A DNA stretch of 64,000 bases from NCBI RefSeq assembly GCF_037975245.1, contig NC_092578.1, positions 12,754,321 through 12,818,320 on the forward strand. The letters are read 5' to 3'. The stretch comes from Apostichopus japonicus. Taxonomy: Eukaryota > Echinodermata > Holothuroidea > Aspidochirotida > Stichopodidae. A model generated the notes under the pieces. It was not told where the DNA came from and ran no database searches. It saw nothing but the letters and a program-made list of their open reading frames with translations. The position numbers and the translations under genes are program-made. Below, piece after piece: positions 8,825-64,000 of the stretch (positions within the stretch are counted from its first letter, which is position 1; each line of letters opens with the position of its first letter).

Positions 8825-9176
8825 CGGGTGACTGGATCAGTGAAATCTACTCATCAGATAAAGTCGTATCTTCTCAGACAGATAATCACTTTTTAACCAA
8901 GCTCACCGTTGGGTTTGAAACTATTGATGTGGTCAACTTAACCTGTAAATGACCTCTCACTTATTCAGGCGACAATTATATTGCAGACCCAGAGAAGAAG
9001 ATCGCTGAATGAATTGCCTTCCTGTTACTCACTTTTCGCAATAGGTGGACAAATATTCATTTACTGCCTAATAATTTTCATGATGCCGATTTAGACGTCA
9101 AGATCTGCCATAGTATGTTATTTTGTGTCAGAAGTGGGATAGGCAATACTATTTTCAAAATCTAAACGGCATAAAA
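8825..9176. other. No feature recognised upstream of the retrotransposon
   Basis: Unique-looking AT-rich sequence. No copy of the 3' LTR (13274-14825) can be found here, so the retrotransposon lacks an adjacent 5' LTR. Confidence 0.5.
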
Positions 9177-9192
9177 GGGCGGTGGATATAAA

Positions 9193-10142
9193 ATGTCTAA
9201 ATCAGCGATGAGAGACCTGCAGCGCCAGCTGGATGCTCTTGCAGAAAGTCTTGAGCATGGGAAGGCCAAGAGGGAGGAAAAACTGGCGGAACGGGATGCT
9301 CCGAACACCGTCTATGTGCTAGAGAAGGAGAGGAAGATAAGAGCATTCTCCGGTACTGAGGGACCAGCAGTGAGCAGCTTCCAGGAAGACATCCAGGCCG
9401 CACTAAAGGTACGAAGGTTATCCGATACCGATGCTGCAGACTTTATATTGGCCCACCTGGAGGGAGCAGCCAGGCAGGAAATGCGGCATCAACCGTCAGA
9501 AGTGACCTTGGACCCAGACCTGATCCTTCAGAAGTTGTCGGACACATTTGGGACCGCCGTACCCTTGGCTCCCTAATGAGAGAAATGTGTAACAAAGTCC
9601 AACGAGAGGAGGAGACGATTGCAGAGTTCGCATTTAAACTCATGTCCCTAGCAGATCAGCTAAAGAAAGTACCTGGTGCCCCTGATGCAGAACAAGCCAT
9701 CAAGGAGCAGTTTCGAGATGGGCTGCTTGACGAAGTATTGCGCCGTGAGATTAAGAAGGCCCTGATACAAGACCCTGATGTGTCTTTTATTAAGTTGAGA
9801 GACTGGGCCCTTGATATGGCAGAAGAGGATCTTGACCTCCCCAGAAGACGTGTACGAAAGCCTGTGAGTGCCGTCGAGGCAGAGACCACTCAAATCACGA
9901 AAGCCCTGGTCGATTTGACGACAGCTGTAAAAAGCCAGGCTGAGGTGATGGAAGCCCTGCAGATCCAACAGTCAGGCATATTATCACGACTTGACAAGCT
10001 GGAGGCACAGACCACCCGACCTGCTCGCATCCCGAAGAAAGACCTCAGGTGCCATCGATGCCAGAAGATAGGTCATTTGGCGAGGGAATGCCGCAGCCCA
10101 GCACCTCTGTCACCTGCCGTCACTCAACAACAGGAAAACTAG
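9193..10142 (+). pseudogene. Gypsy gag, frameshifted
   Basis: The capsid-like region is split between two frames: 9193-9576 (N-terminal part with coiled-coil-like charged residues) and 9576-10142 (C-terminal part). A one-base change near 9550-9570 explains the switch. The second part ends in a CCHC zinc knuckle (CHRCQKIGHLAREC, about 10051-10092) that binds RNA in this family. The frame ends at a TAG at 10140 that overlaps the protease frame by about 90 bases in the -1 register. Confidence 0.8.
10133..10139 (+). promoter_or_regulatory. Possible -1 ribosomal frameshift site GGAAAAC
   Basis: The heptamer G GAA AAC sits in the gag frame directly before the gag TAG, and the pol frame is exactly -1 relative to gag. 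It resembles slippery heptamers of the GGANNNN class. A downstream structure was not established. Overlap and spacing fit gag-pol frameshifting, but the heptamer is not the commonest type. Confidence 0.4.
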
Positions 10143-10654
10143 AAACATCCAGCACAGTGAGCCATGTTCTGGGTGAGATTGTAACAGAGACGCAAGGGGG
10201 CTCAACAGATTTCTATTCATCTATTGTCGGGGAGCGACCTACTACCACTGTGGTGATGAATGGCTCTCGGATTAAGGCAGTTATTGATACGGGTTCAGCT
10301 GTAACACTTCTATCCAAGGCTCATTTCTTGACGTTGTTCGCAGGGAAGTCACTGGTAGAATTAAGGTGGCTTGGGTTAAAGGCTATCAATCAAACAAGGA
10401 TTCCCTTCTTGGGTTATTTTGAGATAGATGTAGAAGTTGGTGGCGAAGTGATACCCAACCGTGGTATTCTGGTGGTTGAAGACGATCAAGACCCTCCATT
10501 GTTACTGGGCATGAATATCATCCACCGAATGTCAGGAGAAGTTCTTGTTTACATGCTTGGGTACAAAATTGATGAGTCAAAGCTGTCGAAGCCAGTCTCT
10601 ACTTTGGCACGGATACCTGGGAAGAACAAAGTTAAGTTACCAGCAAGAAAGTAA
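10140..10654 (+). CDS. Gypsy protease region
   Basis: The open frame (first ATG 10049, likely entered by frameshift from gag) encodes a retropepsin-like domain. The active-site motif VIDTGSAVTLLS is near 10282-10317, with the hydrophobic LLLGMNII element about 70 residues later. It would cleave the Gag-Pol polyprotein as a dimer. The frame stops at 10652, where an 8-bp tandem AGAAAGTA marks the junction of the deletion that removed reverse transcriptase. Confidence 0.8.
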
Positions 10655-13084
10655 GAAAGTAAGGATTGGCCTGAGCCACAGAATGTGAAGGATCTACGAT
10701 CGTTTCTGGGATTTTGCTCCTTTTACCGACGGTTTGTCGTAGATTTCGCCAAGACGGCAAAGCCACTCCATGCACTGGTGTCCACTAGCCTACAAAATCA
10801 ACGTTCTAAGAAAGTAACACCGTTTCTCTGGACAAATGAGCATCAAATTGCCTTCCAGGAACTGAAGGATAAGATGTGTCGACAGGTTGTGTTAGCTTAT
10901 GCTGACTACTCACAACCATTTGAAGTTGAAATTGATGCGTCACTCCAAGGTTTTGGTGCTGTCCTATTGCAACGCCAAGATGGACAACGAAAGGTCATAG
11001 CCTTTGCCAGCAGAACTCTTCGAGGTGCAGAGAGAAATATGCAGAAGTATTCCAGTTTCAAGTTAGAACTACTTGGTCTGAAATGGGCGGTAACCGAGAA
11101 TTTTCGGGAATACTTGCTGGGCAACAAGTTCATCGTCTACACGGACAATAACCCCTTAGCTCACCTGGACAATGCTAAACTTGATGCAGCATCACAACGA
11201 TGGGTAGGAGCTCTTGCTTCATTTGATTTCACTCCTAAGTACAAACCAGGACGGTTGAACACTGGAGCCGATGCCCTGTCCAGACGCCCACATGTGCCAC
11301 AGCCTGAGGTAACCTCGAGTGAACTTGGTCAAGGAGTAGGACTTACAATTGTTCCTGCAGAATTGATTGAGGCAATTTCCAAGCCAAATGTGGAAGTGAG
11401 TGTCAATCAAGTGAATGCCGTGAAGACATCACCTTTGGTGTTCCCATCCTACACCAAGGACCAACTGAGAAATTTCCAACAGAACGATCCAGTGATTAGA
11501 AAGTTCTACACTTTCTGGTTGACCAAGGAGAAACCCTCAGTTGAAGAACGGGTAAAATATAGTGAAATGTCCCTACTTGTGAAGCAGTGGGACAAAATTC
11601 AAGAGTATGAAGGACTCTTGTATCGGTCTATAGAAGATGGGAAGAAACTACAATTAATTCTTCCAAAAGTTCTCCAAGAAGAAGTGCTATTTGCCTGTCA
11701 CGACCAATGCGGACACCAAGGATACAAAAGAACATTGTCACTCATTCAAGATCGGTGCTACTGGCCAAAATTTTCTCAAGACGTAGCCTCATATTGTGAA
11801 AGGTGTAACGAGTGCACACGGTGCAAAAGGCCACCCAAGATCAGAGAACCACTGAAGAGCATGATGGCAACCAGGCCAAACGAAATCCTTGCTATAGATT
11901 TCACCACCATTGAGAAAGACACAAGAGGCAAGGAAAACATACTTGTGATGACCGATGTCTTCTCAAAGTTTACGCAGGCTATACCTACATCTAACCAGAC
12001 TGCGGAGACAACTGCTAAGGTATTAGTTCGTAACTGGTTCCTTTTGTATGGACCACCAAAGAGACTCCACTCTGACCAGGGCCGAAATTTTGAATCGTCC
12101 CTTATACAATACCTATGTAAAGTGTATGGGGTCAACAAGAGCCGAACAACACCCTACCATCCTGAAGGCAACGGCCAAGCAGAGCGGTTCAACAGAACTC
12201 TGCATGATCTTCTGAAGACTCTGCCACCAAACAAGAAGCGTCGTTGGTCAGATCATCTCCCAGAAGTCCTGTATGCTTATAATTCCACACCACACACTTC
12301 CACGAGTCTGTCTCCTTTCTTCTTGATGTTTGGAAGGGACCCAATCCTTCCAGTGGATTACCTGCTGGGGCGTGTAGATTCTCCATCTGACTCAGACGAC
12401 ACGGATCCCATTGCTAACTGGGTGACGTCACATACCGAGAATTTACAGATGGCGTTCAAGAAAGCAGGGGAGCAGATGTCTTTGGAAGCAGAGGCTCGTA
12501 AAACCCAGTATGACAAGAAGGCCAAATCTCATCCAATAACTCTTGGGACCAGGGTATACCTGAAGAACCATCTCCGTGGAATGCACAAGATAGCAGATGA
12601 ATGGGGTTCCACAGTCTTTAAAGTGGTCTCTCGCCCCAATGAAGGTTCTGTGTACGTCATCGAACCGGCCGATGGTAGTGGTGGACAACGAACGGTACAC
12701 CGGCGGGAAATACGGACATGTCCACAGCTGATAGACGTACCTGTTGCTGTCTTCAAACCCGTTGCCCCAGCTCAGTGTGATCGGGAAAGGAAGTCGTCCA
12801 GTGACTCCAGTAGTGAAGAGGATTACGGTTTCCGCCGACATTTTGAAGGTGCCCTAACGAGACGTAAGCAATCAACCAGTGATGACTCTGATTCATGGTC
12901 TAATGACAGCGAGGTCATCCAACCACTACGTCGCAGTGCTCGAGTCACCAGAGGGTTTCACTCTAATATCAGCCACCTGCCGAGAAGTATTAGCAGTGTG
13001 ACAAATAGTACCTTGTATGATATTAAGTTATCAGATTTGTGTCGGCAAACCCAAAATTTGCTTGAGCGTGTCAAACGTTGTTAG
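10655..13084 (+). CDS. Gypsy RNase H and integrase (pol remnant)
   Basis: Sequence resumes at the end of the RT connection (LRSFLGFCSFYRRFV) and stays in the protease frame. RNase H follows with acidic residues in VEIDASLQGFGAVL, KLELLGLKWA and VYTDNNPL. Integrase has an HHCC zinc module (H, H, then CERCNEC, about 11699-11822) and a DDE core (AIDFTT, HSDQGRNFES, GNGQAERFNRTL), then a GPY/F-like C-terminal module and a serine/acid-rich tail. The frame is open for about 800 codons. The polymerase palm and fingers, including the YxDD box, are absent. The internal ATG at 10685 is unlikely to be a natural start. Confidence 0.88.
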   Translation, partial: ESKDWPEPQNVKDLRSFLGFCSFYRRFVVDFAKTAKPLHALVSTSLQNQRSKKVTPFLWTNEHQIAFQELKDKMCRQVVLAYADYSQPFEVEIDASLQGFGAVLLQRQDGQRKVIAFASRTLRGAERNMQKYSSFKLELLGLKWAVTENFREYLLGNKFIVYTDNNPLAHLDNAKLDAASQRWVGALASFDFTPKYKPGRLNTGADALSRRPHVPQPEVTSSELGQGVGLTIVPAELIEAISKPNVEVSVNQVNAVKTSPLVFPSYTKDQLRNFQQNDPVIRKFYTFWLTKEKPSVEERVKYSEMSLLVKQWDKIQEYEGLLYRSIEDGKKLQLILPKVLQEEVLFACHDQCGHQGYKRTLSLIQDRCYWPKFSQDVASYCERCNECTRCKRPPKIREPLKSMMATRPNEILAIDFTTIEKDTRGKENILVMTDVFSKFTQAIPTSNQTAETTAKVLVRNWFLLYGPPKRLHSDQGRNFESSLIQYLCKVYGVNKSRTTPYHPEGNGQAERFNRTLHDLLKTLPPNKKRRWSDHLPEVLYAYNSTPHTSTSLSPFFLMFGRDPILPVDYLLGRVDSPSDSDDTDPIANWVTSHTENLQMAFKKAGEQMSLEAEARKTQYDKKAKSHPITLGTRVYLKNHLRGMHKIADEWGSTVFKVVSRPNEGSVYVIEPADGSGGQRTVHRREIRTCPQLIDVPVAVFKPVAPAQCDRERKSSSDSSSEEDYGFRRHFEGALTRRKQSTSDDSDSWSNDSEVIQPLRRSARVTRGFHSNISHLPRSISSVTNSTLYDIKLSDLCRQTQNLLERVKRC

Positions 13085-16943: not shown

Positions 16944-16998
16944 GAGTCGAGTGGCTCATCACCCATCTCCACATATTTGCTGACCAGCGACCTCGACA

Positions 16999-17523
16999 AT
17001 GAAGACTGCCGCAATTCTCATCGCTTGCCTTTTAGCATTGCAGACCAGCCTCGGGAACGCCGCACTGACGGACTGTGTAGTGCAGGCTTTCGGGAGCGAA
17101 CTTGGAGGGAAGGGAATATACGTGACCGTCCAAAAAAACGGTTTCGGTTGTTCTGATGGGAATTGGCCGTGGGAAGATGTCAGCGGCGAGAAGGATTTCG
17201 ATGGGACGGGTGAGGCAGAAGTTCCTCTTCGACTGCACGTGGATGTATTTGGAGTGTGCATGAACCAGATGTCAATTTGGGTGACGTTGCCGTACCAATG
17301 CACCAGCTATGACCGTATGGTAACCGACGCAGTTTGGAATAGTCCTTTTGGCGGTCAGGGGTCGTGTCGTGCTTTGAAGCAAGATTGCGGCGGAACGGTG
17401 TCAACGGCCGCGGTGCCATATATCGATATGTGGTGCAGGACCCCCAGCGGTATGGTTTTCGAGGGGCAGGCACAGGAAATGCGAATGGGATGGGGGTCCC
17501 CAAGTGCGAACGACCATTGTTAG
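16999..17523 (+). CDS. Small secreted eight-cysteine protein, intronless
   Basis: This is a 174-residue ORF. It starts with a textbook signal peptide (MKTAAILIACLLALQTSLGNA, cleavage likely before ALTDC) and has a purine at -3 of the ATG. The mature part of about 153 residues holds eight cysteines, enough for four disulphides, and ends at a cysteine. Trp-rich motifs NWPWEDV and MRMGWGSP stand out. The ORF is clearly more GC-rich than its flanks and sits just behind a TATA box, which supports a real single-exon gene. I do not recognise the family; an extracellular role is inferred from the signal peptide only. Confidence 0.7.
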   Translation: MKTAAILIACLLALQTSLGNAALTDCVVQAFGSELGGKGIYVTVQKNGFGCSDGNWPWEDVSGEKDFDGTGEAEVPLRLHVDVFGVCMNQMSIWVTLPYQCTSYDRMVTDAVWNSPFGGQGSCRALKQDCGGTVSTAAVPYIDMWCRTPSGMVFEGQAQEMRMGWGSPSANDHC

Positions 17524-26679: not shown

Positions 26680-26928
26680 AGCACTTTAATATATGGTATT
26701 TATATTTATATACTTTTTAAGAAAAAGTCACCCAGGAAAGAACCTGGGCACGAAAACCAAACTACCAAACGACTGATCCGCTCTCAGCCCCAGTCCCCTT
26801 GCATCGGGACTGTGACTGTGTGATCATCGTCAGGTGTGTATCACCATTCCCTAAAAGAACAGATACTACACATGATCTTAGCCAAAAGGCCGAGAAGCAC
26901 TTTAATATATGGTATTTATATTTATATA
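26680..26928. repeat. 33-bp direct repeats flanking the U2-like insertion
   Basis: The same 33 bases (starting AGCACTTTAATATATGG) occur at 26680-26712 and 26896-26928, exactly at the two edges of the U2-like segment. They look like a long target-site duplication from retroposition. Confidence 0.75.
26713..26898 (-). pseudogene. Retroposed U2 snRNA-like RNA with complete 5' head
   Basis: On the minus strand the segment begins GCTTCTCGGCCTTTTGGCTA and continues through GATCATGTGTAGTATCTGTT, matching about the first 45 nt of U2 snRNA, including the GUAGUA branch-site recognition element. The following 130 nt do not resemble U2 stem-loops IIa-IV and have no evident Sm site. They match the bodies of the copies at 6396 and 35236, with a terminal hairpin GCCCAGGTTCTTTCCTGGG. 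It is flanked by a 33-bp duplication. It reads as a retroposed chimeric or U2-derived RNA, and no snRNA function is claimed. Confidence 0.65.
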
Positions 26929-52001: not shown

Positions 52002-52340
52002 ATAAAGTGTTTGTAGCACTGTTACAGGCCTGGCGATTATAAACGCCTTCCAGTTGTATTCATGGTTATAAAAAAATTAAAAAAATTGAATTTCGTGCAT
52101 TACTTAAATTGGAAATAACAATATGTTTTTAACAAATGTCTTTGTTTTTGTAGTTTTTAATTGAACCACAGTTCGTCTGACGTAAGGAGGCTAAAATTCC
52201 TATAAAGTCATTTATAATTATTAAACAAAACTTAAATAATAAAAGTTACTTCAATTATTGAAATATAAACTAAATAACCAAAACTAAAATGATATAATAT
52301 TGTATGTCCAAATAAATGAAGTTTATTCCTTCTGAAACTG
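50230..52340. other. No gene recognised
   Basis: AT-rich DNA with a TA run at about 51969-51998. It is the region downstream of the minus-strand receptor gene. Confidence 0.45.
52322..52327 (-). terminator. Candidate polyadenylation signal of the receptor gene
   Basis: AATAAA on the minus strand 13 bases after the stop codon. It is unusually close; further AATAAA-like hexamers lie downstream. Confidence 0.35.
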
Positions 52341-52518
52341 TCATGTAGTGATGCGTCTGGTGCGTTTAGTCATATGATAACTCAGTCGTCTAGTTATACA
52401 TGGTTTTAACTGTTGTAGATCTTTTATTATACGAACCGTTTTAAATGAAGCTCTCAGCTGATGGATAGATGGCCTTAGAGAACAATTTTCACTCCAGCAA
52501 TCAAACAGAAGAAAGTTT
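52341..52518 (-). CDS. Receptor pseudokinase, last exon
   Basis: Starts after the acceptor CCATGTTTTTCTTAG. Encodes NFLLFDCWSENCSLRPSIHQ, matching the kinase alpha-H/alpha-I region (CW...RPSI.QL), then a basic tail ending KRTRRITT and a TGA stop. Confidence 0.8.
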
Positions 52519-55500
52519 CTAAGAAAAACATGGAGAAGCATTAACATATAGTACATTGACAAGTATTATCATAACCCATATATGTGTGCGAAACTGAAAT
52601 ATTTTCACTTTAAACTGTCAAATCTAACATACCTCTCTTGACTAAAACAATTTAGTATGAATGAATTAGTTATTATGATATGTTTTAATCTAATGTAACT
52701 CGATAAACAAGACCCAATTAGCGAGCTGACCCCATGGATTCTCAAGTTTATGAACAAGACATCGTTTATGTTATGACAATATACCAACCTTAACTGTAGA
52801 AACCTTTCTGGCCATAGTAAATTAGGGGCGATGATAGTATCACCAGGCTTGATCTCTTTATCGACGGCGAATGGCGGCTTTCCTATTAGAATCAGCACAA
52901 TGAATATTCATATATTATGTATTGCTTTATTGTTTTAGATTGTAGATGACATGACAAAAACCTTTATGTCTTGAATCATTTAAAAATAGTATATCATAGC
53001 ACAATCCGATACAAAACTCAAAGTTTGTGCGTATAACATTTCCATTGGGCTGCTGGTTTAACATATTGTGTCCGAGTCAGTCAACTAAATTTGCAAAGTT
53101 TCCAATAAACTCTTGCAATCAAATCAAAAGAATATATAGCACTGCAAGGTTCAAGCAGTTTTATATAGGAATGATTTACCATCTGCTATGACCTCCCATA
53201 TAACAATAGCTGTAGCCCATACATCACTCTCGGCTGTATATTCACTCCGAAACAAAGCTTCAGGAGGGAAGAGATTTAAGGATTTTGAAACTTCATCCTG
53301 TAAATGAAAGGATATTTGGTGTAAAGATACGTTACCAAAATTGTGTAAAACAACATTTCCAGGATAGTATTACGACCCACCCCTTCCGCCTTCCCCCACC
53401 CATTCATTAAAAGCTGTGTTCAGTCTCCGATAATGTATACCTGTAAGATATTTGTGGACATATCAAATTGTTGTAGTGTATTGTCGACAAATATAACACT
53501 CATCACATATATTAGAAATTCATCTTTACCTTATAAGAGGGAAAGGGAAAGGCAAAGTATGCTACTCCTGTTCGATCACTACAGGAAACATTATAATTAT
53601 GAAAGACTGAGTCAGGTATGGCATGTTTATTAAGAGAAAGAAACAATTAGTTTACCACTCATTAAATGTGCTACCCTATTTACAGATTTTGCAAGTGTAA
53701 CTAACAGAACAGAAAGCACTTCGTTTTTCATTTCAGATACCTAGGTCTACCTTGCAGGGTTCTCAATTAGCTTTATATGTGAGGAACAGAGAAAGGAAAT
53801 CCTCCCGTAATGTTGATCTAAAGAGTTGTTTTAGACACTCATTTCAACGTTTTCCTATTAGTTCCTTTAATATCATGCAGACAATTATCAATAAGACAAT
53901 AAGGTGGAAGTCTCGCTGACAGTGAAGAGCTCAGCGCGTGACGAGAATCACTCATTAATTGGTTTATATTTTACCTGTGTTTTCTTGAATGCTATTATCT
54001 TTGGTGCATCTTCGGCGAGACAGAAATCATATAATTTACATTGTCCTTGTTTGGTATACAAAATCTTCTTTGTTGATAAACCAGGATGGAGAAACTAGAA
54101 GAAAAAAATTGTCCCAAATATAGGTCGGTAGAAATATATACATTATTTTGCTTTCGTAATGAATGTCTCAGTTAGGTTATGTACATAATATAACATAGAA
54201 TATCATATCACATCATATTGCAACACGTTACAACACATCATATCACACTACATGACAACACAACATATCACGACATAGTATACGGTACGTTACATTCAAG
54301 ATTAAGCTTACTCCATAAGACTGTAAGAATAAATGTCTCAGTTAGGTTATTTACATCATAACACAATATAACATAGATTATCATATCACATCATATAACA
54401 ACACGTTACAACACATCATATCACACTACATGACAACACGACATGTCACGTCATAGTATACGGTACGTTACATTTAAAAATAAACTTACTCCATAAGACT
54501 GTAAGAATAAATGTCTCAGTTAGGTTATGTACATCATAACACAATATAACATAGATTATCATATCACATCATATAACAACACGTTACAACACACCATATC
54601 ACACTACATGACAACACGACATGTCACGTCATAGTATACGGTACGTTACATTCAAGATTAAGCTTACTCCATAAGACTGTAAGAATAAATGTCTCAGTTA
54701 GGTTATGTACATCATAACACAATATAACATAGATTATCATATCACATCATATAACAACACGTTACAACACATCATATCACACTACATGACAACACGACAT
54801 GTCACGTCATAGTATACGGTACGTTACATTCAAGATTAAGCTTACTCCATAAGACTGTAAGAATAAATGTCTCAGTTAGGTTATGTACATCATAACACAA
54901 TATAACATAGATTATCATATCACATCATATAACAACACGTTACAACACATCATATCACACTACATGACAACACGACATATCACGACATAGTATACGGTAC
55001 GTTACATTCAAGATTAAGCTTACTCCATAAGACTGTAAGAATAAATGTCTCAGTTAGGTTATTTACATCATAACACAATATAACATAGATTATCATATCA
55101 CATCATATAACAACACGTTACAACACATCATATCACACTACATGACAACACGACATGTCACGTCACAGTATACGGTACGTTACATTCAAGAATAAACTTA
55201 CTCCATAAGACTTTAAGACTTCCATTCCTTCCAGTATACCCGCTAACATTTTCATAACCTCTGTCACTGACATGGTACTACTTAACTCTCCCTGCGCACT
55301 GGAGTCACTCGTTATAAGGCTATCCAATGGATCACATACAAGATGTTCGGTGATAAGATAAAGAAAACCTAATAGTATACAAGAAATACAAAAGAAAATA
55401 AGTATGAACAATTTAGTAATTTCTAATTAATTATTGGATCTTTATGACACTTTCTACTACTACATCATATTTACATTCGATACGTTACATACTGTAAGCT

Positions 55501-58500
55501 TACAATGTTATTATCCATTATGTTCAGCTGGTCAACAAACACTGTGATTCTGAAGTGATTAAAAGCTATAGTCCATGTAGAACTTTACTTTTGTGGCGGA
55601 TGAAAGAGGAACATATATGCTAAGATTTCTGTTGAAATTTCCACATAGCTAGTTTAAGACGTTGATAACCGAAACTGTAACAGTTTGTACATGCATACGT
55701 GAACTTTCAACAAACAGCTATGACAGACGTGCTTTGATATATATAGTTCCACGCTGACAGTTTAATATTTGGTTTTGCTTTTACTTGTCATTTCATTATC
55801 TTAACAATGGATTGGATTGGGTTTCAGCTTTACTTAACCAACGTGATGTGAAATTAATAGTCAGGTGGCTTAGCAACAATTTTTAGGCTTAACGTTACAG
55901 GCTGGACAAAAGTACCAAATTTGGCATGGAGTTTCTTTTCGACCTATCTATCACTTTTATCCGTGGAACCCACTTGATCGGCTCCGATTTTCCAAGATGG
56001 CGGCCAAAATCCAAGATGGCCGCCAGAAAAAAAGGAAATGTCATATATCTGGCTGTAAAAATCGGAGACGAACAAATGAGGGGTCAATTAAGGTGTTTCC
56101 GTGGTTACTGAAACAGATGATGGTCACGGCATGTTGCTCGAGTAAGCCACTTCCAAGATGGCGGCCAAAATCCAAGATGGCCGCCAGAAAAAAAGGAAAT
56201 GTCATATATCTGGCTGTAAATATCGGAGATGAACAAATGAGGGGTCATTCAGATGTTTCCGGGGTCACTGAAACAGATGATGGCCATGGCATGCTGCTCG
56301 AGTAATCCACTTCCAAGATGGCGGCCAAAATCCAAGATGGCCGCCAGAAAAAGGAAATGTCATATATCTGGCTGTAAAAATCGGAGATGAACAAATGAGT
56401 GGTCAATAAAGGTGTTTCCGGGGTCACTGAAACAGATGATGGCCATGGCATGTTGCTTGGGTAACCCACTTCCAAGATGGCGGCCAGAATCCAAGATGGC
56501 CACCTGGAAAAAAAGGAAATTTCATATATATTCATTCCTCAGACCCATGTGCCCTTCCTTTACTGATTGGGACCATCAAACCTTCCGTCCTCAAACGTGT
56601 AAATGAAACCAGGCTAGCACCCTGACTATATGTTTTGGCTGGTAGTCTTATTGTGTCACTTTGGCTCAGGAAGCCACTTAGGACTTATTGGGGAACTTTG
56701 AGGTGTGATCGACCGTGGATAGACACTGTCGCAAAGCCCGTTATTATATGGGACTAACGAGTGTCATGTAAGACTGATTACATTGAGTCAACTATATAAT
56801 AGGGTAACTTCGGGGAAAACCGACCAAATGTGAATACCGACTCATTGGAAGATTTTGTACGATTGTGCACACTTCATAAACACAACGTCAATTCTGCTAA
56901 CTTGACTTGATCAAGTTTGTTAAAGTTCGTGATTTGCCATGTGCCATGGTCTCCTTGGACCAGGAGAAGACCTTTGACATGGTAGAACACGACTTTCTGT
57001 TCAGAACCTTAGAGTCCTTTGGATTGAACTCAGTGTTTATTCGTTGGGTCATGTTACTAAATAAGGACGTCACGAACATGGTCACTGTTAACGGATTAAC
57101 TTCTGGTCCCTTCCCGGTTCGAAGGTTCGAGTCCATCGGTGTTGTCCCCTCTCCCCGTTGTTGTATGTTCTCTTCAGCAAAACGCTTAGTACCTCGCTGG
57201 ACAGATGCTTAGGTTATCGACCCTTCAATGTACGGGGTGGGGCTAGAGTTACAAGCGTGCAATATGCCGATGACGTCACTTGTATTTTGTCAGACCTCGC
57301 CTCCTTCAAGCCTTTATTGAAGGTTTTGGCCACCTTCCAAGAGGCTACTGGTGCCAGACTTAGCAAGTCCAAGACCAAAGGGCTGCGTTTAGGAGGTTGG
57401 CGCGGCCAATCCCTCTTGTTCGATGCTACTTGGTCAGATGTCATGATCAGGGTAAATGGCATCTGGCTAGGTTATGGTGCCCCCGAGGCCACCACTTGGG
57501 CCGAGAAGGCTGATCAGGTGGAGGCAAGGCTCGACACATTCAGTCGGAGGTGGCTCTCCCTCCCTGGAAAGGTTACAGTTGTTAATCGTTTTATTGTTCC
57601 TCTTCTTTGGTATCCTGGTACGGTGATCGCTGCACCGGATCATGCTTTAGTGAGATTGGAGAGGATCATTTTTGATTTCATTTGGGGAAAGCGCAAACCA
57701 AACCTTGTCAAAAGGATCGTTCTGTAAAAGACCCCCTTGACCGGTTGGCTCCGGTCCACATACCATCTAAACTGCGCCTTTTCCTTTGAAAGGTGTGTTC
57801 GTTGCGTTTGAGAATCCTTCGTTTCCCTTTGCCTTTCTTGTTAGGTTCTGGTGTGGGTTTCTTTTTGGCCACCACTGGCCTGGATCCTTTTCCAATAACC
57901 GGCCAAATGCGACACGCCCCTCGGGGGATGTATACTCAGATTGGTGACTCACTTCATAGAATCAAAGAGGAGGGCGGGCCAGATGTTCTGCTGAAGGTGG
58001 CCCCCTTTGTGTTATGTTCAATGCCCGCGCCTGTGTGCCCGTCGGGTTGCCAAATCGCCATCACTCCAGATGTGTGCCGGTCTGTGTGTTGTAAGTCACT
58101 AGATAGCTGTCTCCAGGACTTGGCATGGAGGATTGCACATGGAGTCCTCATCACTAACCATTTTCGCCTAGTCAGGTGGCGATTAGGTGATGGGATTTGT
58201 CAACATGTGGGCTGTGAGGCCATCGAGACTATGCAACACCTTTTGCTGGAGTGTCCCTTTGTCCGGTTGGTATTGGAATGATGGTTTCACGCCTTTGTTA
58301 TTGGTGTTATTGGTTGCACACTGTGGGCCATTAGTAGTGATTTTGTATTGTATGGTTTGTTGTCCTCTGTGTGCCCAAGATAGGTTAGGGATTTGCTGTT
58401 GTTGTTTGCCGCTATCATCAGGAGACACATCTGGAACAGCAGTTGCCGCCTAGTTTTGATGGGGACGTCTGGAGGGCCGAGGCTGTCGTCTCCCTCATGC

Positions 58501-61500
58501 AAAGTGACATAGGTTGCGCATGGAGGCCGACCACGCACGGCTTCCCGACACTGAATTTCGTAGACGCTGGCGCAAGCCTGTCGTCTACTATCGGGACGGC
58601 GTTCCCCGGATGAAATTTGGAGTGAGTTAGTTGTTAGGTGTGGGGGTTTGTGTAGTCGTTACATAATATATGGGTTGGTGGGGGGTTTCACTCATTGTGG
58701 TTTGCAGTTTGCTTTTTGGGGCTGGTTTGTAGTGATTTATTGTTTTGGTTCTGTTGGCCTTTGGGTCCGTGTCCTTTTCACGTCACGTTAAACGCTACGT
58801 TATATACATGTGTGGGTTAGTGAGAGATTTCTGTTTTGGGGTTTCAGTTGGGTTTTTGGTGGTTGTTATACAGACTGGGATTGTTTTTGGTTCTGTTGAC
58901 CTTTGGTCTGTGTCCGTTTTCTTTGCACGTAAAAAGCACACATGCAAATGCAGCAAGGCAAATCTGCCTTGCACATCTCTTTGTCGATGCAATGTTCATC
59001 CAAATAGTGTACATCGACTGTGAACTGTCTGGTAAAGAAACATCGTATTGAAACATTGTACACAGAATTCTCGAATACTTTCAGTATGTACTTAAAGGTC
59101 AGTGGAAGTGTTAACTTACATTTTTGAAGGTCACTTTAAGTGCAGCGGATTGATTTGAAACTTACATAGATGAAAAGAGTGTATTTCATAACCCCAAATA
59201 TCAAAGTTTGAGTTTCAAACTCATTTCGTTTTTGTGTTACCTAAATATCCGGGTCCGTTGACGTCAAGAGGGAAACGAAATGTATGTCGCTATTGAGTTT
59301 ACACAGTACTTGCTGATTTTTCGTTCTTCCATAGATGAAAAGTTCAAGTTAATGTTTACTTCAAATTCAATGAATGCCTGCATCTACATATTGTTTAAAA
59401 TTCTGTAACGTTTCATTCAAATCAGATTCGCCATTCTTAAGTGGCAGAGTTTTGAAATTGTAAATTATGCATTATCTAATTGCTTCCCCCGTTGACGTCA
59501 CAAAAATATTACGTAATAGTAAATTTGTCTAATTTTCAAACTGCATCGACTAAAAGTCTGTCTGGTGGTTGGATTTTCAATACTAATCAGAAGGAATCAG
59601 AATCTTCAAAGTCAAGTCTACACTTCCACTGACATTTAACAGTGACAACAAGTGTATTTTCTGTTATATTGGCCGCTATCTTGGTAATAGGTGACCCAAG
59701 CAACATGTCATGACCATCATATGTTTCAGTGACCCCGGAAACACCTGAATTGACCCCTCATTTGTTCATTTCTGATTTCAACAGCCAGATATATGACATT
59801 TCCTTTTTTTCTGGCGGCCATCTTGGATTTTGGCCGCCATCTTGAAAATGGGTGGCCCAAGCAACATGCCATGACCATCATCTGTTTCAGCGACCCCGGA
59901 AACACCTGAATTGACCCCTCATTTGTTCATTTCTGATTTTTGCAGCCAGATATATGACATTTTCTGTTTTCTGGCGGCCATCTTGGATTTTGGCCGCCAT
60001 CTTGAAAAATCGGAACCGATTAAGTGGGTTCCACGGATAAAAGTGATAGATAGGTCGAAAAGAAACTCCATGCAAAATTTGGTGCTTTTGTCCGGCCGGT
60101 AACGTTAAAGTTGCTAAGCCACCTGACTATAACAATATAACAATGAGTGTATAGTGTATTCGCATGTTAATGCATCCACCCAAAATCAGAAGTTGAAATT
60201 TGGATTTGAAGTTTGAACTAAACTAAACTTTATTTTCAGAGTAAAAGCAAAAGAAAATTGAAACGAAGATCTTGATGCAAATATATTCAAGCTACAAGGT
60301 CAAAGCAAGGTCAAGCTATAAGGTCAAAGTATTAGGTATTTTAGGAGAGAAATGAACACAAGAGTAAACTATCGCGAAGCTGTCTCATATCCTATCACAT
60401 ATCGATGAAATCATTTTAAGAATGAATAATATCTCACTTTTTTCGATGCCTATTCCCTCAATTTTCACAAGATGATCTGTTTGAGGAAGATCCAACGTTC
60501 TCTTAACAAAATCATCCCAATGAACATCTTTGTTTTTCACAACACTATCTGAAAAATGAACAAAATATAAATAATTGATTTGATGGTAACTGAAATAATG
60601 TAAATAATACATATAAACCTTTAGGATGCAAACGTTGTTACATTAACGAAAGCAACCAATGAGCATCTTAGGTCGCGGGCAGGTGACAATGACGTCACTG
60701 TGTTCCCTTTTAGAAGTCTTCATTTCTTAATGTATATTATGGACATGATAATTAAACTATTATATATTCTGTATTCATCGGATACCCCAGTTGACCATTG
60801 AGCCCCCCCCCCCTTGTCCTTCCTCAGGCCTACATAAAAGCAGGAATGTATGTGAAGGGGGATTCCCTCCAGATGTTCTGTGACATCATAGACTGTGACA
60901 TCATTCTGTGACATCATAGAAGCGAATCCTATCCTACCTCCCAATGCAGTTAAGACTCCACATTTACTGACGTCACGAGAGACAGTTATTGTTCCCATCC
61001 ATCTATCATAGATCCTCCCTTTCTTCATTTTTAATACGAGACAAATGTCTTTTTCATTAAACATTCTTTCTCGACCAGGACTGTCCTTAGTTGCTGAATA
61101 ATAATCTGAAAGGAGACACGAAAGAAAAACAAAACATTCTTGATATAATAATGTTTGACTGAATTGATGAAAGTCGCAAACCATGTGATCCCTTAAAATT
61201 AGGAAGGTTTGTTTTGACAATGCTATATTCTTCTAGCGATGATCAGTAACTACATTTACTTAATATCCTCACAGACTATGAGATATGTTACTTAGTTTAT
61301 CTGAGATTGAGGACTCACTGCTCTCGCTGCTTCCAGAATGTTGAGAGATTTGTTCTCCAGTTGGTATGTCAGGTAACTCTGATCTTCAATGAAACAATAA
61401 AACAGAAAAGGAAATCAAACAGTATAGTTATTCCTCTTTCTTTGTAGGCTCACTAAGTGGTGGTGTGTGTGGGGGGGGGGGGGGGGGTGTAGGGGGGGGG

Positions 61501-64000
61501 TGGGAGTAGCACAGTAAACGCAACGTTCAACATTCCGCAGTTAATTGAGCATGACTGTACACCAGCTGGCTAAATCAGTTATATATAAAAAACAATTACC
61601 ATCATGCCCTTAAAACCATTCTTAAAAGGTTATCCGTATTGCCCCAAAATATGCTAGAAGTCAAATAGTGGTCAGCCATGTTCATTGAATTGCCACCTTC
61701 AAAACATTCTTCCTCACTGAAGCATTGAATTGACACCTTCGAAACATTCTTCCTCACTGAAGCATTGAATGGTCTACTTGGCCACTCCTCAATGTCTGAG
61801 AGTTATTTGGATAGTCACCCTTAGTTCAACACAGGAACATGTCGGATCGTTTCAGACAATAACTAAATGCTAGTTTTATTATTTTAATCAGCAAATGTTA
61901 TTAAGAAGAACTTACTTTGGTTTCTTCTCATGTAATTTTTTCTCCAGACCTGTGAAAGCAGAAACTTGTTTGATATTTAGTATGAAAGAGTAAGAGAGAG
62001 AGAACAGAGCAATGAGACCTGATCAGCATTTTAGTGAGTTCAAGTAACACTGTTTGGCTGCAGGGCAGGTATCAACAAACGACCATTGTTACTAAATAGA
62101 AAAATGTCGGATCATTAATACAGTGAAGGATCATGTAAAATCGTTTAAATTAGAGAGGAGACTTTTGACAGACCATTTCTACCCTGCTACTGATATAGCA
62201 GATTACTATGAGTGTCATGTAAAACTATATACAAAGATTTATACCGTATACTGATATAGCAGATTGATATTATGAGTGTTATGTAAAACTATACAAACAT
62301 TTCTACGGTATACTGATATAGCTGATTACTATGAGTGTCATGTAAAACTATATACAAAGATTTATACCGTATACTGATATAGCAGATTGATATTATGAGC
62401 GTTATGTAAAACTATACAAACATTTACCGTATACTGATGTAGCAGATTATTATGAGTGTCATGTAAAACTATATAAACATTTATACCGTATACTGATATA
62501 GCAGGTTGATTATTATGAGTGTCATGTAAAACTATACAAACATTTACCGTATACTGATATAGCAGATTATTATGAGTGTCATGTAAAACTATATAAACAG
62601 TTATACCGTATACTGATATAGCAGGTTGGTTATTGTGAGTGTCATGTAAAACTATACAAAATGAGGTTAGTTACTTGATTGGTCGCCTGGTTGATCTAAG
62701 TCTGTCATCTCAACGTTTGCTTGTCCATCCGAGGCAGCACCGACATTTCTGGAAAAAATGACATAAATAAATATATAAATGTGTGTTTTTATTTTGCACA
62801 AAATGATAGTGAACAATACAAGCTAGACTTTATTTACGCAAGCTCATTTCTCGAAGCTGTTTACACAAAGCTATAACAGTGGACATATTTGACATTTCTT
62901 TATAGTAGGGGTAGAATTCTTTTTCAAAAGAAATATCAGTTACTATTCGTAGACATATACTATTTGGAACAATTATGCTTAACTTACGTCGATAGCCTAG
63001 CTCCCCTGGAGACTGCAAGGGAGAGAGAGAGAGAGTCATAAAACGAATTTTGAGAGATTCTTTTAAAACCAAAGTTATTGATTATTACCCCCTTACCCTC
63101 TACATTCCACCCTCCCTGTAGCAGCTAGACCCTCCTTTCATCCCCACACTTATCTGTGAAGCCAGTGCTATTCTGTATATCATAAACGTATAATCGATTT
63201 GATGAATGATGGAAGAATATTGTCACTTTTTTTAAATTAACCTCCATTTCTATAACGAGTGTGTTTGCGAGGGGGGGGGGGCGTAGGGCGGGGAGTGAAG
63301 GGAGGGGAGGGAATGAGGGGAGGGAGGGAATGAGGAAGTGTTTGCGGGGAGTGGGTGTTTCTGGTTACCATCATGTGGGCAAGGTGATAACATAAACTCA
63401 GGGGGTATTCTACTTGTTGAGTCCTCAAGACTTGTAATATTTCTATTTGCTTCATAATGACGTATAATACTTTTCTTTGTACTTTACGGATGGATGGATG
63501 GATGAAAGCGGTATAGGCTACTCACATTTAAATTTCTTGATTATCATGGAACAGCTTAAGAAGATGAGGCTCATGAGGAGAGCCGCTGTCCCAATAATTA
63601 CCCACTGAATAGAGCCAACTAATGATGTCCCAGTAGTGATGCCCGGTAATTCAGATACAAAACGTTGTTCAGAAACTTGTAAAATAATAAAATGAAATAA
63701 CGTTATATGTATGCTTATTTGAAAATAAATAACGTTATGTTTATGCTTATGTGAAAATGATACCAAAGGTAACACCGATACAGAGGTACACAAGGACATA
63801 TGTAGGTAAAAAATAAGGGCTTATGAGAACACATAGGTAAAAGTTAGAGTCATGAGGCTAAGGGAGGGGGGGGGGGCTTGCTCCTGAAACCACCCGGTAT
63901 ATTTTTTACTTACCAGGTAGTGTGACTTTCCTTGATATATTAGTTTCCATATCAACTTCTTGTAATTTACTAAGACAGAAGATCTTAGTTTCTTGGGTCC
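52341..64000 (-). CDS. Receptor tyrosine-kinase-like pseudokinase (5' end outside window)
   Basis: Thirteen exons join in one frame: 63914-64000 (partial), 63526-63675, 62988-63012, 62675-62748, 61916-61949, 61319-61383, 60938-61105, 60438-60548, 55202-55368, 53975-54094, 53180-53297, 52789-52882 and 52341-52518. All introns are GT-AG and every phase agrees. The product has an ectodomain end, a transmembrane helix followed by KKFK, a Ser-rich linker and a kinase-like domain ending shortly after the alpha-I motif CWSENCSLRPS. Catalytic elements are replaced: HRDLAARN reads HPGLSTKK, DFG reads DFC, the beta-3 VAxK region reads GVLT, and the glycine loop is reduced to KKGRIYDRWMG. It should be catalytically inactive and may act as a decoy, co-receptor or scaffold (inference). 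Confidence 0.85.
52789..52882 (-). CDS. Receptor pseudokinase, exon for the alpha-F to alpha-H loop
   Basis: Encodes GKPPFAVDKEIKPGD, the usual G..PF after the alpha-F helix, and NLLWPERFLQL. Flanked by TTCTAATAG and a donor GTTGGT. Confidence 0.8.
53180..53297 (-). CDS. Receptor pseudokinase, APE and alpha-F exon
   Basis: Encodes LFPPEALFRSEYTAESDVWA, with PPE in place of APE and the structural SDVW aspartate retained, then TAIVIWEVIAD of the alpha-F helix. Confidence 0.85.
53975..54094 (-). CDS. Receptor pseudokinase, catalytic-loop exon (HPG, DFC)
   Basis: Forty whole codons. HPGLSTKKIL stands where active kinases have HRDLAARNIL, so the catalytic Asp and the metal-binding Asn are lost. 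After TKQGQCKLY comes DFCLAED, keeping the Asp but not the Gly of DFG. The activation segment is short and has no tyrosine. Confidence 0.88.
54157..55201 (-). repeat. 178-bp intronic tandem array derived from an exon-intron junction
   Basis: About six units with an exact 178-bp spacing, judged from the motif CTCCATAAGACT at 54312, 54490, 54668, 54846 and 55024, ending at the true exon edge 55202. On the minus strand each full unit contains CTAACTGAGACATTTATTCT, TACAG, then TCTTATGGA and GTAAG. The last 9-16 bases of the exon and its donor were thus included in the duplicated unit. Confidence 0.9.
55202..55368 (-). CDS. Receptor pseudokinase, hinge and alpha-D/E exon
   Basis: Encodes FLYLITEHLVCDPLDSLI, matching beta-5, the hinge and alpha-D, then EVMKMLAGILEGMEVLKSYG, matching alpha-E, followed in the next exon by the HPG loop. 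It ends AAG TCT TAT GGA before GTAAGT; the end of this exon seeded the neighbouring tandem array. Confidence 0.85.
55860..56540 (+). repeat. FB1 left arm, four 160-bp YY1-motif modules
   Basis: After about 130 bp of unique terminus, four modules start near 55992, 56152, 56312 and 56472. Each holds CCAAGATGGCGGCCA and CCAAGATGGCCGCC, both with the YY1-type core AAGATGG, followed by GTCATATATCTGGCTGTAAA and AACAGATGATGG. Confidence 0.85.
56838..56886 (+). pseudogene. ORF remnant in FB1, upstream of the LINE
   Basis: A short stretch reads DSLEDFVRLCTLHKHNVNSA before the LINE begins. It may be the upstream part of the ORF whose Cys-rich tail is at 58936-59023. Very short, so tentative. Confidence 0.2.
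56885..58620 (+). pseudogene. LINE reverse transcriptase, L1/Tx1-like, broken
   Basis: Frames are broken at several points. 56907-57150 has the first palm motif (MVSLDQEKTFDMVEHDF) and VNGLTSGPF. A frameshift near 57125-57155 leads to 57158-57727 with YADD (about 57262-57273) and FSRRWLSLPGKVTVVNRFIV, then FIWGKRKPNLVKR typical of L1/Tx1-type LINEs. A stop at 57725 and more frameshifts follow. Near 58200, CQHVGCEAIETMQHLLLEC matches the zinc-ribbon tail of such ORF2 proteins. The endonuclease and ORF1 are missing. It is inserted in the centre of FB1. Confidence 0.8.
58621..58935 (+). repeat. Probable LINE 3' UTR with internal tandem repeat
   Basis: GTTTGTAGTGATTTATTGTT, TTGGTTCTGTTGGCCTTTGG and TCCGTGTCCTTTTC.CGT recur at about 58680-58790 and 58845-58930. 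The end CGTAAAAA may mark the LINE tail. Confidence 0.5.
58936..59023 (+). pseudogene. Cys-rich CXC-like tail remnant in FB1
   Basis: The frame reads HTCKCSKANLPCTSLCRCNV and ends soon after at a TGA. The CxC...LPCTxxCxC spacing resembles CXC-type tails of transposon-associated invertebrate proteins. Upstream coding is cut off by the LINE. Confidence 0.35.
59640..60127 (-). repeat. FB1 right arm
   Basis: Inverted copy of the left arm with two complete modules (near 59813 and 59973) and one decayed module near 59668. Confidence 0.85.
60438..60548 (-). CDS. Receptor pseudokinase, alpha-C region exon
   Basis: Encodes VVKNKDVHWDDFVKRTLDLP and DHLVKIEGIGIE, aligned with alpha-C to beta-4 of tyrosine kinases. 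The expected alpha-C glutamate position appears to be Arg. Acceptor TTTTTCAG, donor GTGAGA. Confidence 0.8.
60938..61105 (-). CDS. Receptor pseudokinase, beta-1 to beta-3 exon
   Basis: Encodes DICLVLKMKKGRIYDRWMGT for beta-1 and the nucleotide loop, and CGVLTALG for beta-3, where the VAxK lysine is not present. Acceptor TCCTTTCAG, donor GTAGGA. Confidence 0.82.
61319..61383 (-). CDS. Receptor pseudokinase, linker exon
   Basis: Encodes SELPDIPTGEQISQHSGSSE, a Ser-rich juxtamembrane linker. Acceptor TTTCATTGAAG, donor GTGAGT. Confidence 0.7.
61440..61505 (+). repeat. G-tract cluster in a receptor intron
   Basis: Two runs of nine or more G within 50 bp (about 61471-61487 and 61492-61501), with GTGTGTG in front. 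Confidence 0.8.
61916..61949 (-). CDS. Receptor pseudokinase, 34-nt linker exon
   Basis: Encodes LEKKLHEKKP, a basic segment. Acceptor TTTCACAG, donor GTAAGT. Its phase fits both neighbours. Confidence 0.65.
62150..62660 (-). repeat. Intronic minisatellite, about 60-bp units
   Basis: Eight to nine units with TACCGTATACTGATATAGCA, GATTATTATGAGTGTCATGT and AAAACTATACAAACATT, in the intron between the 62675-62748 and 61916-61949 exons. Confidence 0.85.
62675..62748 (-). CDS. Receptor pseudokinase, acidic linker exon
   Basis: Encodes NVGAASDGQANVEMTDLDQP and GDQS. Acceptor TTTTTTCCAG, donor GTAACT. Confidence 0.7.
62988..63012 (-). CDS. Receptor pseudokinase, 25-nt microexon
   Basis: Twenty-five bases between a CT-rich acceptor (TCTCTCTCCCTTGCAG) and GTAAGT, encoding SRGARLS in the frame set by its neighbours. 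Confidence 0.6.
63526..63675 (-). CDS. Receptor pseudokinase, transmembrane exon
   Basis: Encodes the end of the ectodomain (SEQRFVSELPGITTG), a hydrophobic span WVIIGTAALLMSLIFLSC and a stop-transfer KKFK. Acceptor TTATTTTACAAG, donor GTGAGT. Confidence 0.82.
63914..64000 (-). CDS. Receptor pseudokinase, ectodomain exon (partial)
   Basis: The exon continues past the window edge. Visible residues end DMETNISRKVTLP at a donor GTAAGT. The domain type cannot be told from 28 residues. Confidence 0.7.

Follow-up and report, generated by a model that had tools for sequence, protein, structure and literature searches.

A sea cucumber immunoglobulin receptor gene with a putatively non-catalytic tyrosine-kinase-like domain, and its HPG/DFC relatives

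Why would a receptor gene keep a kinase domain whose catalytic site appears to have been dismantled? This question is raised by a gene at the end of a 64,000-nucleotide stretch of the Apostichopus japonicus genome (C18:12754321-12818320, hereafter the window; the genome searched was the 671,581,487-base assembly of 35 contigs), in which a transmembrane segment is followed by a tyrosine-kinase-like domain reading HPG in place of HRD and DFC in place of DFG. The gene is intact, the altered site is shared with other copies in the genome, and purifying selection is strongest there among the kinase exons. The residues themselves suggest that the domain is catalytically dead. We posit, with a probability of roughly 0.62, that the locus is an intact immunoglobulin (Ig) receptor gene with a non-catalytic tyrosine-kinase-like domain, one of an expanded HPG/DFC family that would signal by docking or scaffolding.

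Gene structure and the altered kinase domain

Thirteen exons on the minus strand, E1 to E13, run from 64000 to 52341 and join in a single frame of 462 codons across 12 GT-AG introns, closing on a TGA stop that ends at 52341; at intron composition, so long an open frame would arise by chance with a probability of about 6e-14. An earlier note on this DNA had called the gene intact over thirteen exons, which holds for the positions, the frame and the splice sites, but these are only the last (3′) 13 exons of a longer gene that extends past the window end at 64000. Encoded in order are a stalk, a transmembrane helix, a juxtamembrane YY and the tyrosine-kinase-like domain. Neither tblastn nor a motif scan found a second gene copy inside the window.

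A profile search of the joined protein, as that note had proposed, matched Pfam PK_Tyr_Ser-Thr (PF07714) at E 2.9e-26 over residues 223-427, that is, from behind alpha-C to the end; a tyrosine-kinase-like profile also matched all eight copies of a family alignment (A3, below). The N-lobe alone gave no significant match, its best kinase match in the PDB having E 1.4. At residue 296, HPGLSTKK takes the place of an HRDLAARN-type loop, with Gly for the HRD Asp and Lys for the catalytic-loop Asn, and at residue 316 DFC takes the place of DFG, with the Asp kept and Cys for Gly. The alpha-C Glu is replaced by Arg in both a HMMER alignment to EphA3 and a MAFFT alignment to FGFR1, the window gene has no Tyr between DFC and PPE, and the structural elements PPE, SDVW, CW and RP are present; on each of these points the earlier description stands. 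To its list we add the Asn-to-Lys change and an altered Gly-rich loop (KKGRIYDRWMG), which has lost its first Gly in the MAFFT alignment and is alignment-dependent in the remainder. KIT and EphA3 agree at 59 columns of the C-lobe, and the window gene retains 30 of these, including the HxD His, the DFG Asp and Phe, the PPE Glu, SDVW, CW and the RPS Arg; the P+1 Trp is missing. A table contrasting structural with catalytic positions (10/11 versus 2/14 kept) was hand-entered from recall and is register-dependent, and we do not rely on it.

The weakest of the motif claims concerns the beta-3 Lys, for which the earlier note had proposed the Thr of GVLTAL. The register here is uncertain: by MAFFT, LGDS rather than GVLT aligns with VAVK, so that Ser falls under the Lys, and the N-lobe to which both belong lacks a significant match; neither register places a Lys there. 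The intron behind GVLTAL interrupts the fourth codon after the Thr, just as the KIT exon 12/13 intron does after K623, the KIT beta-3 Lys. This KIT-like intron position, together with a Thr kept in 13/13 copies, favors GVLTAL, with the Thr or its neighbor Leu probably at the place of the Lys. The Lys of SVVK (residue 205), three residues past the intron codon and kept in 12/13 copies, may serve as a substitute.

The HPG/DFC family and selection on the altered site

The hunt for further HPG/DFC paralogues that the earlier note had called for yielded dozens of loci. A protein search of the genome gave at least 97 matches, window exons included, with 92 of 823 candidates scored, and the codon pattern HPG[LF][ST]TKK occurs at 58 exact sites genome-wide versus 1 for the reversed control, in 31 DNA spellings (HPGLTTKK 31, HPGLSTKK 21, HPGFSTKK 6). 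One putatively dead loop is therefore spelled out in one animal more often than HRDLAARN (30 sites) or HGDLAARN (37 sites), both with a control count of 0 and both counted as these exact loop spellings only. The kinase exons were traced in thirteen copies, E13 being absent from the stretch examined for one, and not every HPG site is proven to be a whole gene. The nearest copy, at C18:19.86 Mb, is near-identical (dS 0.020, dN 0.005, for synonymous and nonsynonymous divergence); another, at C12:2.68 Mb, stands at dS 0.162 and dN 0.050. Collections of genome contigs and viral contigs contained 11 and 1 pattern stretches, respectively, none confirmed as a relative, as expected for an animal gene.

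Across 36 catalytic-loop exons, HP is invariant and followed by G in 29, C in 5, A in 1 and D in 1; all 36 have Lys at the place of the Asn and all 36 have FC, the residue before FC being D in 34, E in 1 and N in 1. The copies were mostly recruited through E10, the best conserved exon, and 15 of the 36 loop exons were selected by the HPG motif itself. When the choice did not depend on HPG, 23 of 24 DFCLAED sites lay in a family exon, the third residue being G in 16, C in 5, A in 1 and D in 1; one of the 16, at C12:24.92 Mb, was assigned from its coordinates alone. A DFCLAED site at C9:14.87 Mb lacks kinase context and was dropped as a family member.

Selection acts on this site. By the Nei-Gojobori method, dN/dS is 0.18 overall (13 copies, 78 pairs) and 0.19, 0.20, 0.27, 0.09, 0.18, 0.13 and 0.16 for E7 through E13; the lowest value, 0.09, belongs to E10, the HPG/DFC exon, so that, of the seven kinase exons compared, the one with the seemingly dead loop is under the strongest constraint and the loop itself is conserved. 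Among 10 copies (those at C12:2.68, C16:45.0 and C18:19.86 Mb omitted), E10 stood at 0.085 (bootstrap 0.036-0.167) and the remaining kinase exons at 0.199 (0.159-0.244), an order reversed in 0.85% of 2000 bootstraps. Since the other exons span dS values of 0.71-1.61 and E10, at 0.82, falls within that span, the low ratio points to protein constraint and not to recent conversion. Because Pro for Arg, Lys for Asn and Cys for Gly occur in 36/36 exons, both the divergence measured and the constraint postdate those losses. In alignment A3, which comprises 8 of the 13 copies (without C12:2.68, C16:40.23, C16:45.0, C18:19.86 and C19:13.77 Mb), 35 of 43 columns of the Gly-loop and catalytic-loop/DFC segments are invariant versus 77 of 246 elsewhere (Fisher 8e-10, although columns are not independent).

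These patterns bear on two rival explanations. If the gene were a decaying pseudogene, its motif losses would record decay after function was lost, a process visible in part of the family, where 2 copies out of 13 are interrupted by in-frame stops, one (C12:2.68 Mb) in E13 and the other (C16:45.0 Mb) in E9, and perhaps hinted at by a 4.27-kb element within intron 8 of the window gene; the near-identical C18:19.86 Mb copy lacks this element, which is therefore probably a recent insertion. This explanation is highly improbable given 462 codons without a stop or frame break, 12 intact splice pairs, a dN/dS of 0.18 with its minimum at the altered site, and neutral simulations of the frame, in which none of 200 runs stayed stop-free at any of seven distances and 16 stops accumulated on average at 0.5 changes per site. 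The proposal of the earlier note that a folded, dead receptor is maintained by selection is borne out as to selection, with deadness predicted from the residues. Alternatively, the domain could be an unconventional but active kinase, with the DFC Asp and a displaced Lys sustaining a weak activity of the sort known from some atypical kinases; the strong constraint on the site, the Asp before FC, the SVVK Lys behind the probable beta-3 and one copy retaining HPD would all suit it. We nevertheless regard activity as improbable, because the HRD Asp is lost in 35/36 and the Asn in 36/36 catalytic-loop exons, the alpha-C Glu is Arg in 13/13 followed copies, and the aligned C-lobe lacks the P+1 Trp.

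A proposed docking role for the receptor

What lies outside the membrane is seen in part. An exon 1.0-1.3 kb upstream of the window end is conserved and matches Pfam C2-set_2 (E 3.2e-7); it is the one Ig exon above the Pfam cut-off. A second, closed by E1, is Ig-like by eye only, E1 having no Pfam match to Ig or any other family, and the 5′ end of the gene was not found. Together with the single transmembrane helix identified by eye in E2, the upstream Ig match gives the protein an extracellular domain and a membrane anchor. Faster divergence of the ectodomain than of the kinase part is indicated by two comparisons: relative to the C12 copy, dN/dS is 0.44-1.0 in ectodomain exons and 0.31 in kinase exons, and identity to four distant copies is 28-41% over the Ig exon as against 60-66% over the kinase exons. 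On the inner side, YY precedes the kinase domain in 13/13 copies.

We posit that the ectodomain of this single-pass receptor recognizes a ligand, while the pseudokinase domain would keep its fold without ATP turnover and present its remodeled cleft (Gly loop, HPG loop and DFC), along with the juxtamembrane tyrosines, as surfaces for docking. An active receptor kinase that paired with this receptor could then phosphorylate these tyrosines, leading to recruitment of SH2 adaptors, by analogy with the action of EphB4 on EphB6. The retention of both YY and the remodeled cleft fits such a role. The genome also contains another clustered family of receptor-kinase-like genes, in which HGDLAARN replaces HRDLAARN (Table 1); the Asp, Asn and DFG are kept in 4/4 copies examined, so these kinases look active, and they are named here as candidate partners only. 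It is conceivable, if doubtful, that the family is a diversified set of recognition receptors in which a kinase cleft has been put to a new use: the ectodomains of dozens of Ig receptors would change fast, and a single pocket without catalytic function (GT.Y.RWMGT, HPG.STKK, DFCLAEDA), present in all of them, would bind the same partner or ligand, possibly the co-expanded HGDLAARN kinases.

A receptor of this kind could instead be a decoy or dominant-negative form that binds ligand without signaling and keeps its kinase-like domain for folding and trafficking only. The lost catalytic residues, the short tail, the scarcity of tyrosines and the signs of a fast ectodomain accord with this, yet constraint for folding alone predicts conservation of the core, whereas the cleft-lining loops and the juxtamembrane YY are among the most conserved segments; we consider the decoy unlikely.

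Several observations weigh against the docking receptor that we prefer. The C12 copy has a broken E13, so its raised ectodomain ratio may partly reflect decay, as the stops in two copies do for part of the family; the Ig exon compared with the near copy at C18:19.86 Mb has a dN/dS of only 0.28; and most distant copies show no ectodomain match in the 10-20 kb examined. In three C4 copies only one Tyr is present in the juxtamembrane part, and the alpha-C Arg is replaced by Thr. With the Asp kept before FC in 34/36 exons, Mg binding and weak ATP binding may persist. One copy at C16:45.85 Mb (C16:45854048-45854148) reads HPD, keeping the catalytic Asp alongside DFC and Lys for Asn, and may show the order in which the residues were lost. 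Finally, the dN/dS values come from pairs that share ancestry, dS is saturated in many of them, and the Nei-Gojobori method is rough where dS exceeds 1.

Table 1. Exons of the receptor gene and associated features; positions are those of the window unless a contig is named
Feature	Position	Strand	Remarks
E1, 3′ part of ectodomain exon, cut by window end	63914..64000	-	GT donor; Ig-like by eye; exon continues past 64000
E2, stalk and transmembrane helix (WVIIGTAALLMSLIFLSCSMIIKKF)	63526..63675	-	hydrophobic stretch identified by eye
E3, 25-nt juxtamembrane exon	62988..63012	-
E4, juxtamembrane exon	62675..62748	-	also present in the C18 and C12 copies
E5, 34-nt juxtamembrane exon	61916..61949	-
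E6, juxtamembrane exon	61319..61383	-
E7, juxtamembrane YYS, altered Gly loop, probable beta-3 (GVLTAL)	60938..61105	-
E8, alpha-C (FVKRT, Arg for Glu) and beta-4, 111 nt	60438..60548	-
E9, hinge to alpha-E	55202..55368	-
E10, catalytic loop HPGLSTKK and DFC	53975..54094	-	best conserved among the seven kinase exons compared
E11, PPE and SDVW (alpha-F)	53180..53297	-
E12, alpha-G region	52789..52882	-
E13, CW..RPS, short tail, stop TGA	52341..52518	-
AATAAA, possible poly(A) signal	52322..52327	-	13 nt between stop and signal; from the sequence itself
4.27-kb inverted-repeat element (AGTCAGGTGGCTTAGCAAC) in intron 8	55858..60129	.	outside gene product; carries RVT_1 (reverse transcriptase) fragment
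HGDLAARN clusters	C17 13.17-13.61; C18 8.70-8.85, 13.97-14.26; C19 8.83-9.14; C21 13.30-13.48 Mb		plus single sites

Most of intron 9 is filled by a 178-bp tandem repeat (window 54183-55218, 5.8 copies, 96% matches), which extends over the final 17 nt of E9; the end of this exon, including its splice donor, is thereby itself repeated. Elsewhere the window contains Gypsy-type gag-pol pieces with protease, RNase H and integrase domains (9175-13084), a shortened match to U2 small nuclear RNA on the minus strand (26807-26901, 53.9 bits) and, on the plus strand, a single-exon frame of 179 residues with a hydrophobic start, several Cys and no Pfam match (16984-17523).

Comparison with known receptor kinases

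Receptor tyrosine pseudokinases and a receptor-kinase expansion in A. japonicus are both known; the pseudokinase part of such an expansion was not found in print. Expanded, clustered "tyrosine-protein kinase receptor" genes have been described in this species in a paper (PMC5638244) whose main text contains neither "pseudokinase" nor "inactive"; the available part of a preprint (PMC13228809) has no use of "pseudokinase" either. That expansion resembles ours in species and in the clustering of receptor kinase genes, and may include the HPG/DFC family. No such pseudokinase family was found in the literature searched, including the available parts of PMC8662651 and PMC10855541, a coverage that mostly excludes subscription papers. 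Our results suggest that the published expansion should be re-read, as part of it may phosphorylate nothing.

The Ig-like ectodomain recalls class III/V receptors (KIT, PDGFR and VEGFR) and FGFR; class III/V receptors have five or seven Ig domains, and here one Ig exon and a second Ig-like exon are seen. E8, with split codons at both ends, and E10, which starts in phase 0 two codons ahead of the HxD His, are placed like KIT exons 13 and 17, which cover p.628-663 in whole codons and p.788-828. Unlike class III/V receptors, the window gene lacks catalytic residues and has a short tail and a short kinase insert, about 7 residues longer than that of EphA3 in the alignment. FGFR presumably shares the two KIT-like intron placements, and the remaining kinase introns were compared through the sizes of KIT exons 18-20 only. 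By sequence, the closest single protein is EphA3 (phmmer), and a profile search ranks a tandem EGFR construct first and FGFR1 next; PDGFR, KIT and VEGFR were rejected as closest sequence relatives on this ranking.

Human receptor tyrosine pseudokinases number eight, and PMC13259870 (Table 2) names EphA10, EphB6, HER3, PTK7, ROR1, ROR2, RYK and STYK1. Like the window gene, they encode single-pass receptors with a tyrosine-kinase-like domain devoid of catalytic residues. Several receptor pseudokinases bind ATP, and in EphB6 and HER3 the inactive receptor partners with an active receptor kinase, becomes phosphorylated and recruits adaptors (PMC13259870). EphB6 likewise carries Arg in alpha-C and lacks both the HRD Asp and the Asn, and its paired juxtamembrane phosphosites, phosphorylated by EphB4 (PMC13259870), find a counterpart in the YY of the window family. 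Yet none of the Table 2 proteins has HPG, DFC or Lys for Asn, and the window gene, unlike that set, keeps the DFG Asp. With dozens of loci in one genome as opposed to eight human proteins, this family provides a natural alignment for asking why the cleft of a pseudokinase is kept.

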